Positions 13,079 through 15,698 of a stretch of DNA of 64,000 bases are shown piece by piece (the stretch's first letter is position 1; each line of letters opens with the position of its first letter). The stretch comes from Limnochorda sp. LNt. GTDB lineage: Bacteria; Bacillota; Limnochordia; Limnochordales; Geochordaceae. Both the position numbers and the translations under genes were made by a program. Below the pieces are notes generated by a model. The model did no database searches and had not been told where the DNA came from. It worked only from the letters and a program-made list of their open reading frames with translations. Location: NCBI RefSeq assembly GCF_035593265.1, contig NZ_CP141614.1, positions 2,852,001-2,916,000 on the forward strand, in the 5' to 3' direction.

Positions 13079-13759
13079 TCAGGCTTTGCGCAGGCAGAGA
13101 TACCAGTCCTTGCATTCGTACCCCGCTTGCTCGACCCGCTCGAGGCGCGCCTGGAGGTCGGCCTGCGTCTGGGGCGGGGGCAGGATGACCGGCTCGCCGG
13201 GGTGCCAGTCGGCAGGCGTGGCCACCTTCTCCCGATCCACGGTCTGCAGCGAGTCGATGATCCGTAGGACCTCGTCGATGTTGCGGCCCGTCGACATGGG
13301 GTAGTAGAGGATGGCGCGCACCACCTGGCGGTCGTCGATGATGAACAGGGCCCGCACCGTCGACGTGGTGCCCTCCTTGGGGTGGATCATGCCGTAGCGG
13401 CGGGCGACCGTCATGTCCAGGTCGGCGATGATCGGGAAGGGCACCTTGACCCCGAAGCGCTCCTCGATGTTGCGCAGCCAGGCCAGGTGGGAGTAGACGC
13501 TGTCGATGCTGAGGCCCACCAGCTGCACGTTTCGCCTGGCGAACTCCTCCGCCCGCCGGGCGAAGGCGACGAACTCGGTGGTACAGACCGGCGTGAAGTC
13601 GGCCGGGTGCGAGAAGAGCACCACCCACTTGCCGGCGAGGTCGCTGAGCTTGAGCATCCCCTGAGTGGTCTTGGCCTCGAACGGCGGTGCCGGATCGCCG
13701 ATGCGCGGCAGAGCGGGCGCCTCCGTCTCGGCCTGTGCGGTCTCGAGCAGCACGTCCAT
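13079..13759 (-). CDS. Peroxiredoxin of the Prx6/archaeal thioredoxin-peroxidase type
   Basis: This cytosolic enzyme reduces hydrogen peroxide and alkyl hydroperoxides. The peroxidatic cysteine C59 lies in HPADFTPVCTTEF, and the long C-terminal arm of the Prx6 group is present (TPADWHPGEPVILPP). Two extra cysteines at the extreme C-terminus, C216 and C222 in CKDWYLC, have the same spacing as in archaeal hexadecameric thioredoxin peroxidases, where one acts as resolving cysteine. The ATG at 13759 has AAGGGGG upstream; the frame extends further but without a ribosome site. Monocistronic. Confidence 0.93.
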   Translation of the reverse strand: MDVLLETAQAETEAPALPRIGDPAPPFEAKTTQGMLKLSDLAGKWVVLFSHPADFTPVCTTEFVAFARRAEEFARRNVQLVGLSIDSVYSHLAWLRNIEERFGVKVPFPIIADLDMTVARRYGMIHPKEGTTSTVRALFIIDDRQVVRAILYYPMSTGRNIDEVLRIIDSLQTVDREKVATPADWHPGEPVILPPPQTQADLQARLERVEQAGYECKDWYLCLRKA

Positions 13760-13912: not shown

Positions 13913-13941
13913 CTGGCCAGTGTCCTGCTCCGTGCTATACT
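13913..13941 (+). promoter_or_regulatory. Promoter for the ABC-F gene (extended -10)
   Basis: TATACT at 13936-13941 is preceded by a weak -35 (CTGGCC, 13913-13918) with 17-base spacing. The string TGCTATACTG recurs upstream of the MFS gene near 49520. Transcription would start near 13948, giving a leader of about 105 bases. Confidence 0.6.
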
Positions 13942-13955
13942 GGAGTCTGGTTACC

Positions 13956-13970
13956 CCTCGGCACCCGAGG
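13956..13970 (+). promoter_or_regulatory. Leader hairpin 1 upstream of the ABC-F gene
   Basis: CCTCGG (13956-13961) pairs with CCGAGG (13965-13970) across a three-base loop, immediately after the predicted transcription start. Confidence 0.45.
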
Positions 13971-13995
13971 AATCGACGCGAGAGGTGTGCGTCCG

Positions 13996-14016
13996 ATGCG
14001 CGAGCTCACCCGCTGA
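13996..14016 (+). CDS. Candidate leader peptide MRELTR before the ABC-F gene
   Basis: A six-codon frame (ATG 13996, TGA 14014-14016) is preceded by AGAGGTG at 8-base spacing. It lies in the 5' leader of an ABC-F gene; such genes are commonly controlled by ribosome-stalling leader peptides. Downstream, GCGAC/GTCGC (14022-14035) can form a hairpin just before the ABC-F ribosome site. Function is inference from layout only. Confidence 0.4.
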   Translation: MRELTR

Positions 14017-14054
14017 CCGGTGCGACATCCGTCGCCGAGGAAGGGTGAGCATGC

Positions 14055-15698
14055 GTGTTGGTCCGCGTCGAGCGGGTCTCCTTCGGCTTCGCCGGCGAGC
14101 CGTTGTTGAGCGACGTCTCCTTCACCGTCCACCGGGGGGATCGCATCGGCCTCGTCGGGCTCAACGGGTGCGGCAAGACCACGCTGCTCCAGATCATGGC
14201 CGGGCGCCTGCGCCCCCAGCAGGGTGAGGTCTCGGTCGCCCGGGGCGTGCGGGTGGCCTACGTGGGCCCCGAGCGTGAGCCGCCGCGAGGCGACCTGCCG
14301 CTGGGCGACTATCTCCTGGGGCCCCTCGAGCACCTCGTCGAGATGGAGCGCGATCTCCAGCGCCTCGCAGAGGAGCTGGCCCATGCACCACCGGAGCGGC
14401 GCGCCGCCCTGCTCGAGGCCTACGGAGAGCTGGCGTCGGTTTTCGAGCAGCGAGGCGGCTACGAGCTGGCGGCACGGGTGGCGGCGGTGGCCGAGGGGAT
14501 GGGGCTGGCCCATGCCCTGGAGCGGCCCCTGGCGTCGCTGTCCGCCGGCGAGCAGGCGCGGGCGGCGCTGGGGCGGGCCCTGCTGGACGAGGCCGACCTC
14601 CTGCTGCTGGACGAGCCCACTAACCACCTTGACCTGCCGGGGCGGATCTGGCTAGAGCGCTACCTCGCGACCACGGCTCGCACCTGCGTCCTCGTCTCCC
14701 ACGACCGTGCCTTCCTGGACGCCTGTGTCACCCGCATCCTCCACCTGGACCGCGGGCACGTGCGGGAATACGCGGGCAACTACGCGGCCTTCGAGGCGCA
14801 GCGGGCGGTGGAGCGCAAGACGGCGTGGGCCACCTACGAGCAGCGGGCCCGGGCCGTCCGACGCCTGGAGGCCCAGGCCCGGCGCTACCGTCAGTGGGCG
14901 CACGAGGTGGAGGCCACCAAGCTCGGGCAGGGGCCCGTCGACCGCGGCTACATCGGCCACAAGGCCGCCCGGATGATGAGACGAGCCCTGAGCGCCGAGA
15001 GGCGGCTACTGGAGAAGGCCGAGCAGATGAAGACGGCCAAGCCCTTCGAGCGGGACCCGGTGCGAATCCGGCCGCCCGACGCCGTTGTGCGCAGCGACCG
15101 GGTCCTGGTCCTCGAGTCGGTGGGCCTGGTCGTGGGGGGACGCACCCTGTTCGATGGAGTGTCCCTGGAGCTGGAGCCCGGCGAGCGGCTGGCCATCCTG
15201 GGGCCCAACGGGTGCGGCAAGACCTCGCTGCTCCGGGTCATCCTTGGGGAACTCGCGCCCTGGTCCGGACGGGTCTGGCTGAGCCCCTCGGCCCGCGTCG
15301 GCTACTTCGACCAGCAGCACCGGCAGCTCGACTGGGATCGCCCGGCGCTCGAGCAGCTCCTGGAGGGCGGTCACGACGAGACCCGGGTGCGCACGGTGCT
15401 GGGGCGCCTGCGGGTGCAGAGGGAGACGCCGCTGCGGCCCGTCGGCAGCCTCAGCTCCGGGGAGCGCGCCAAGGTGCTGCTGGGGCGCCTGCTGCTGGGA
15501 GGGTGCAACGTCATGGTGCTCGACGAGCCCACCAACCACCTGGACATCGAGACGCAGGACGTTCTCATCGAGGCGCTGGCCGCCTACACAGGCACCCTGA
15601 TCTTCGTCACCCACGACCGCCACCTGGTCCGGGCCCTGGCCACCCGCACGCTGGAACTGGCAGGATCGGTCGGCCGTCCGAACGAAGCCACAAGGTGA
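14055..15698 (+). CDS. ABC-F ATPase, probable ribosome-protection type
   Basis: Two ABC ATPase domains occur in one soluble chain without membrane segments. Domain 1 has GLNGCGKTTL, LSAGEQARAAL and LLLDEPTNHLDL; domain 2 has GPNGCGKTSL, LSSGERAKVLL and MVLDEPTNHLDI. The interdomain linker contains RGYIGHKAARMMRRALSAER, a pattern typical of antibiotic-resistance ABC-F proteins such as Vga, Lsa and VmlR, which enter the ribosomal E site and displace drugs from the peptidyl-transferase centre. Start is GTG 14055. The leader at 13942-14054 suggests inducible expression. Drug specificity cannot be read from sequence; a housekeeping translation-factor role is the alternative. Confidence 0.88.
   Translation: MLVRVERVSFGFAGEPLLSDVSFTVHRGDRIGLVGLNGCGKTTLLQIMAGRLRPQQGEVSVARGVRVAYVGPEREPPRGDLPLGDYLLGPLEHLVEMERDLQRLAEELAHAPPERRAALLEAYGELASVFEQRGGYELAARVAAVAEGMGLAHALERPLASLSAGEQARAALGRALLDEADLLLLDEPTNHLDLPGRIWLERYLATTARTCVLVSHDRAFLDACVTRILHLDRGHVREYAGNYAAFEAQRAVERKTAWATYEQRARAVRRLEAQARRYRQWAHEVEATKLGQGPVDRGYIGHKAARMMRRALSAERRLLEKAEQMKTAKPFERDPVRIRPPDAVVRSDRVLVLESVGLVVGGRTLFDGVSLELEPGERLAILGPNGCGKTSLLRVILGELAPWSGRVWLSPSARVGYFDQQHRQLDWDRPALEQLLEGGHDETRVRTVLGRLRVQRETPLRPVGSLSSGERAKVLLGRLLLGGCNVMVLDEPTNHLDIETQDVLIEALAAYTGTLIFVTHDRHLVRALATRTLELAGSVGRPNEATR

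Follow-up and report, generated by a model that had tools for sequence, protein, structure and literature searches.

A short leader that may control an ARE-like ABC-F gene of Limnochorda sp. LNt by ribosome-mediated translational attenuation

An ABC-F gene in the window, as we call the whole 64,000-nucleotide stretch of Limnochorda sp. LNt DNA analysed here, is preceded by a compact leader, which raises the question of whether, and by what means, ribosomes on this leader control the gene downstream. The first-pass annotation had proposed a leader-peptide attenuator with two hairpins and a six-codon frame, MRELTR. The features of the locus are the following.

13913-13941, plus strand: promoter; extended -10 TGC-TATACT, with a weak -35 (CTGGCC at 13913 or TGGCCA at 13914)
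13956-13970, plus strand: 5' hairpin CCTCGG-CAC-CCGAGG, in the MFE fold
13975-13993, plus strand: hairpin in predicted folds; its loop contains the ribosome site of the uORF, GAGAGGTG (13980-13987)
13994-14011, plus strand: 5' arm of the putative switch stem, covering the uORF start and codons 1-5 (predicted folds, duplex test)
13996-14016, plus strand: uORF MRELTR, ATG to TGA, with a basic residue 2 as in related leaders
14022-14035, plus strand: apical hairpin GCGAC-ATCC-GTCGC, the tip of the switch stem in predicted folds
14037-14048, plus strand: ABC-F ribosome binding site GAGGAAGGGTGA (SD duplex -8.4 kcal/mol)
14043-14060, plus strand: 3' arm of the putative switch stem, covering the end of the ABC-F SD and the start codon (predicted folds, duplex test)
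14055-15698, plus strand: ABC-F ATPase of 547 aa with a GTG start, probably a ribosome-protection (ARE-like) protein (model NF000355)

The annotated extended -10 element was borne out by direct reading (TGC-TATACT at 13933-13941), and a sigma-70-type scan returned one site (13914-13941, 9 of 12 matches plus the TG; shuffles gave 0.0, sd 0.2), from which transcription would start near 13948. MRELTR, both hairpins and the ABC-F ribosome site were likewise present where the annotation had placed them. The uORF has its own ribosome site, as had been claimed: the SD GAGAGGTG forms a duplex of -7.1 kcal/mol, and its mean unpaired probability was 0.57 in a longer fragment. Among 166 sampled genes of this genome, whose starts were called crudely, only 3 were preceded at 30-150 nt by an ATG uORF of 3-15 codons with an SD as strong. 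No Rfam match over the gathering score was found in the window or in 10 related loci. The TGCTATACTGGAG string that carries the -10 site in the window (13933-13945) also carries that of the leader of a distant relative (L207), upstream of its uORF. On the other side of the leader, a peroxiredoxin gene (13079-13759, minus strand, PRK13189 model) is divergent from it.

The two annotated hairpins exist, but their stems have only 6 bp (13956-13970) and 5 bp (14022-14035), and we rejected them as the switch. The dominant predicted fold is instead a 17-bp stem, absent from the first-pass annotation, which pairs the uORF with the end of the ABC-F SD and the start codon: 13994-14002 pairs with 14052-14060 and, beyond one A.A mismatch, 14004-14011 (GCTCACCC) pairs with 14043-14050 (GGGTGAGC). 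The MFE of the leader was -55.8 kcal/mol (z -2.91; 2 of 200 shuffles), and the core fragment folded with a z of -3.44 (1 of 200 shuffles). The uORF:start duplex, at -33.0 kcal/mol, was reached by 2 of 5000 dinucleotide shuffles; the host-gene background had a mean of -18.7 kcal/mol and, with the same crude start calling, 4 of the 166 genes had a duplex of equal strength at this geometry, and 15 at any offset. When the upstream 80, 120 and 200 nt were subjected to mononucleotide shuffling, the anti-SD pairing was reached in 2, 8 and 19 of 300 cases, respectively. Against host and shuffle backgrounds the stem is unusual, not unique, and the case for a regulatory leader must therefore rest on comparison. 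An out-of-frame ATG at 14051 lies inside the stem, 4 nt before the ABC-F GTG, and opens a 58-codon overlapping frame (14051-14227) that may compete with ABC-F for the same ribosome site.

ABC-F genes were collected from 72 genomes of the window's class and from a phylum sample of 398 genomes. The 72 loci kept comprised 70 from the class, including the G008 locus twice and a remnant in G001, and two from outside it (L131 and L132); removal of the duplicate and the remnant left 23 uORF-bearing genes and 47 others, with starts assigned by script. The window protein grouped with those of L009 (genome G020, 48-50% identity) and L010 (G024, 46-48%) at an SH-aLRT of 100, and a maximum-likelihood tree of 67 ABC-Fs placed these three with 20 further genes. 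The branch joining all 23 uORF-bearing ABC-Fs had an SH-aLRT of 3, which leaves their monophyly unsupported; a group of ABC-Fs mostly of about 620-680 aa was separated at support 98. Closer to the window, the same-genus genome G001 retains a C-terminal ABC-F remnant (L014, 279-2097; 77% identical, residues 350-541), and the leader and 5' half of this copy were not found in G001. Some 100 bp away from the remnant is an ORF identified by eye as an IS110-like transposase. Neither the leader nor the 5' half of the gene had anything beyond short, weak matches in G001-G003. A contig scan with generic ABC motifs recovered distant ABC-Fs alone, none above 38% identity, and plasmid searches found no close relative. 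No alignable relative of the window leader, against which the covariation of its own stem could be judged, came out of these searches.

What the related genes share is the uORF. For each gene we chose, among the ATG uORFs of 3-15 codons in the 300 nt upstream, the one with the best SD score; residue 2 was basic in 22 of the 23 related genes, the window included (17 Arg, 3 His, 2 Lys). Such a uORF, at an SD of -6 or lower, preceded 9 of the 47 other ABC-F loci, with a basic residue 2 in one of them, and unselected control mini-ORFs had a basic codon 2 in 19 of 82 cases. By lineage, a basic residue 2 was present in 8 of 9 deep lineages, corresponding to a chance of about 6e-5 if the lineages, which we chose from the tree, are treated as independent. 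The missing lineage is that of L188 (G010), which has no ATG uORF and was counted as a miss; by eye, L188 has, some 197 nt ahead of its ABC-F gene, a GTG-start uORF (M-H-L-V...) with a strong SD. The peptides themselves (for example MRISQLPNSIL, MRIRLHHINLIVR, MRNCL, MRINPAYQNQITA, MRTQRLFSNQIER and MKRTAQR) are not conserved beyond close relatives. The closest homologues have MKADG (L009) and MRRSATE (L010), and the two genomes outside the class both have MRI; the best uORF of L131 has a weak SD (-3.0).

Tiny uORFs with weak SDs were also seen in a second ABC-F group of the class: MRL in L166, L199 and L201, MRR in L185 and L192, MFN in L161, MFI in L172, MKN in L167 and MKNS in L170, the frames of L166 and L167 being second-best. 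The L166 protein scores 560 bits with the Vga model and 521 with the CplR model, and the MR-type uORFs of this group resemble the MR[I/M] uORF of cplR.

The related leaders also share pairing segments. A GGTGAGA near the end of the uORF and a TCTCACC(CCC)-type (TCTCACCCC-type) segment immediately ahead of the ABC-F SD were found in 16 of the 23, and the latter segment is able to pair with either GGTGAGA or the G-rich SD; these 16 leaders have a putative antiterminator/anti-SD pair. In 9 of them, the pairing of GGTGAGA with the TCTCACCCC-type segment was 95.7% standard, versus 40-64% when the segments were slid. Within this eight-pair helix, five pairs are invariant and one variable pair shows compensation (types CG, GC, UG and UA); the covariation evidence amounts to that single pair. 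In L009 (2:3, -25.6; 3:4, -22.5) and L010 (terminator arms, -23.1; SD pairing, -25.9), variants of such pairings are predicted. The whole-leader folds of these two gave mostly ordinary z values (+1.66, +0.54, -0.10 and -2.24), and their case therefore rests on the named segments. For most of the ten close f9 leaders the best SD complementarity alone did not exceed shuffles, and it is the conserved segments that provide their evidence. In a test of 100 shuffles over 120 nt, no more than five shuffles reached the native value for 6 of the 23 related leaders and for 2 of the 47 other ABC-F loci. On these predicted pairings, L009, L010 and the GGTGAGA-type leaders are classical attenuator layouts. 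The window shares with them an SD-preceded short uORF and has a predicted stem hiding the SD and start. It holds a CTCACCC/GGGTGAG pair in the reverse order to the relatives, with CTCACCC within the uORF, and its only candidate for an alternative, on-state pairing is an upstream segment that would pair weakly with the arm (-11.3 kcal/mol); direct masking by a ribosome could replace such a pairing.

The protein itself is less informative. NCBIfam NF000355 (ribosomal protection-like ABC-F) gave 447.9 bits with the window protein, above its cut-off of 380, but it also passes the cut-off on ABC-Fs of several separate groups (475 bits for L178, from the other large group). We therefore rejected this model as proof of a resistance function, and the assignment of a resistance role to the window gene rests mainly on the leaders. 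The window protein lies below the cut-off of every named resistance family model (227.9 bits with the CplR (ARE1) model NF043038, which needs more than 780), and none was reached when it was scanned together with eight related ABC-Fs. The GHKAARMM linker, which had been read as a sign of resistance ABC-Fs, proved not to be diagnostic: a GxxGxKAA-type linker occurs in 4 of the 23 uORF-bearing proteins (the window, its two nearest relatives L009 and L010, and one looser match) and in 1 of 49 others, and thus marks a small subclade. The GTG start agrees with the nearest relatives, whose ABC-F proteins likewise start VLV or VLA. By homology, the window ABC-F is a probable ribosome-protection (ARE-like) protein, with a putative role in resistance.

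Taken together, the sequence comparisons and the modelled folds make it likely that this ARE-like ABC-F gene is under ribosome-mediated translational attenuation by its 107-nt leader. The leader-peptide attenuator that had been proposed is well supported by the basic-residue-2 uORFs and by the potentially SD-sequestering elements of L009 and L010, with the uORF-to-start stem in place of the two hairpins. We infer that the uORF is translated, that drugs arrest ribosomes on it, that arrest induces the gene and that its product protects ribosomes. Without drug, ribosomes would complete the six-codon uORF at once, and its RNA would then pair with the ribosome site and the start codon of ABC-F, leaving both starts closed. 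A drug that blocks the peptidyl transferase centre (of the lincosamide, pleuromutilin or streptogramin A type) would arrest a ribosome at or just after uORF initiation; the footprint of this ribosome, extending to about +16, would cover exactly the 5' arm, so that the ABC-F start would stay open and be translated.

Published work on other leaders provides the background for this proposal. A ribosome at the start codon of the vmlR uORF gives a toeprint 16 nt past the A (PMC9226507). In the window, +16 from the uORF AUG is 14012, the base right after the 5' arm, and 13996-14011 matches the footprint. Lincosamides, pleuromutilins and drugs of the streptogramin A type (LSAP) stall ribosomes at the starts of ARE5 uORFs (PMC12421871). 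One observation counts against the proposal, namely that the MRK variant of the vmlR uORF is described as less effective (PMC9226507). When a ribosome was modelled with the uORF AUG in its P site (13981-14012 blocked), opening of 14037-14057 was predicted to cost 8.9 instead of 22.2 kcal/mol.

We considered the possibility that the uORF and ABC-F are simply coupled, with ribosomes that finish MRELTR melting the stem and passing to the ABC-F start, which would set a constitutive level without drug sensing. A gap of 38 nt, bridged by one stem, separates the uORF stop from the ABC-F start, and a modelled ribosome at codon 6 or at the stop lowers the opening cost to 8.6-8.7 kcal/mol, about the same as at the AUG; ordinary translation would therefore open the start briefly, and sensing would lie in dwell time rather than in position. 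Yet 38 nt is long for re-initiation, and in the relatives the uORF lies 134-278 nt upstream, separated from the ABC-F gene by an alternative stem, a layout of conditional control. We consider simple coupling unlikely.

Somewhat more doubtful still is a fixed or temperature-dependent lid on ABC-F, resembling an RNA thermometer, in which MRELTR would be a chance frame. The stem is strong and covers both the SD and the start, comparable duplexes precede some host genes, as described above, and the window leader has no alignable relative. Against such a lid, SD-preceded short ATG uORFs are rare in this host (the 3 of 166 mentioned above), and the uORFs of the homologues have the same basic codon 2. 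Transcription attenuation by a conditional intrinsic terminator at the end of the leader, as in vmlR, cplR and msrD, would suit the many related leaders in which an SD-containing hairpin is followed by a U-run just ahead of the ABC-F start. The terminator scan, however, detected neither a terminator-like site nor a U-run in the window leader, so that a terminator there was rejected and this mode of control is improbable for the window. That nothing here is regulatory is very improbable: strong folds are indeed frequent in GC-rich DNA, as the host background indicates, but a promoter, an SD-preceded uORF with a basic codon 2 and a start-sequestering stem co-occur, and the homologues have leaders too.

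Translational attenuation being the preferred reading, a more speculative extension, which we put forward tentatively, is that the window contains a minimal one-stem sensor. Its uORF would be an antisense of the ABC-F start with the size of one ribosome footprint, and arrest at the very first codon would be read by direct masking, without an alternative fold; the retained basic codon 2 would then reflect an unrecognised codon-2 preference of drugs of the peptidyl transferase centre, whose context specificity is considered slight. If the attenuator reading is right, ribosome-sensing control would extend to the window-related ABC-F genes of 21 of the 72 class genomes and of two outside the class, and the leaders would be indirect evidence that these genes respond to ribosome-targeting drugs. 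The window would offer a very compact switch able, perhaps, to read out arrest at the start codon directly, and the leader set provides a basis for asking why residue 2 of the uORF is basic. A literature search, with most subscription papers and supplements outside its reach, returned nothing published on either this ABC-F group or the leaders that precede its genes.

The comparison with known systems places the window leader within a familiar family. The msrD leader also has a six-codon frame before an ABC-F gene (MsrDL, MYLIFM), but there a macrolide-specific nascent-chain arrest at the stop codon acts through transcription attenuation (PMC10314930). The tiaA and are5sc genes of Streptomyces have a short uORF ahead of an ABC-F gene, and toeprints place LSAP stalling at its start codon; unlike the window, they belong to another ABC-F subfamily (ARE5) and have leaders of 194-232 nt with a terminator and antiterminator (PMC12421871). 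In vmlR of Bacillus subtilis, drugs stall initiating ribosomes on a tripeptide uORF (MIN, with the variants MDN, MDK and MRK). Its SD-sequestering hairpin, a likeness to the window along with the short uORF, adds translational control, whereas the window lacks the transcription attenuation with pause hairpins of this 219-nt leader (PMC9226507). The cplR gene of Clostridioides difficile, induced by retapamulin and lincomycin, is controlled by ribosome stalling on its uORF of MR[I/M] consensus, and mutation of the U-tract shows that translational attenuation is sufficient by itself (PMC10201436). It shares with the window an ARE-type ABC-F gene, a short uORF and a leader hairpin that sequesters the ABC-F SD, but in cplR a terminator lies at the start codon and the antiterminator elements are separate (PMC10201436). 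The window, for its part, combines a single stem with a six-codon uORF, lacks a terminator and encodes a protein that scores far under the CplR model cut-off. By analogy, the window leader is probably an attenuator of the VmlR/CplR kind cut down to translation-only control by one stem, in the manner of cat-86. The cat-86 and other cat attenuators consist of one stem, the left arm of which lies in the leader ORF and the right arm of which holds the SD of the resistance gene; cat-86 itself is a chloramphenicol acetyltransferase gene with a longer leader and a stall at a defined internal codon. The window agrees with this cat-86-type definition, with its left arm in the leader ORF, its right arm holding the SD and no terminator.
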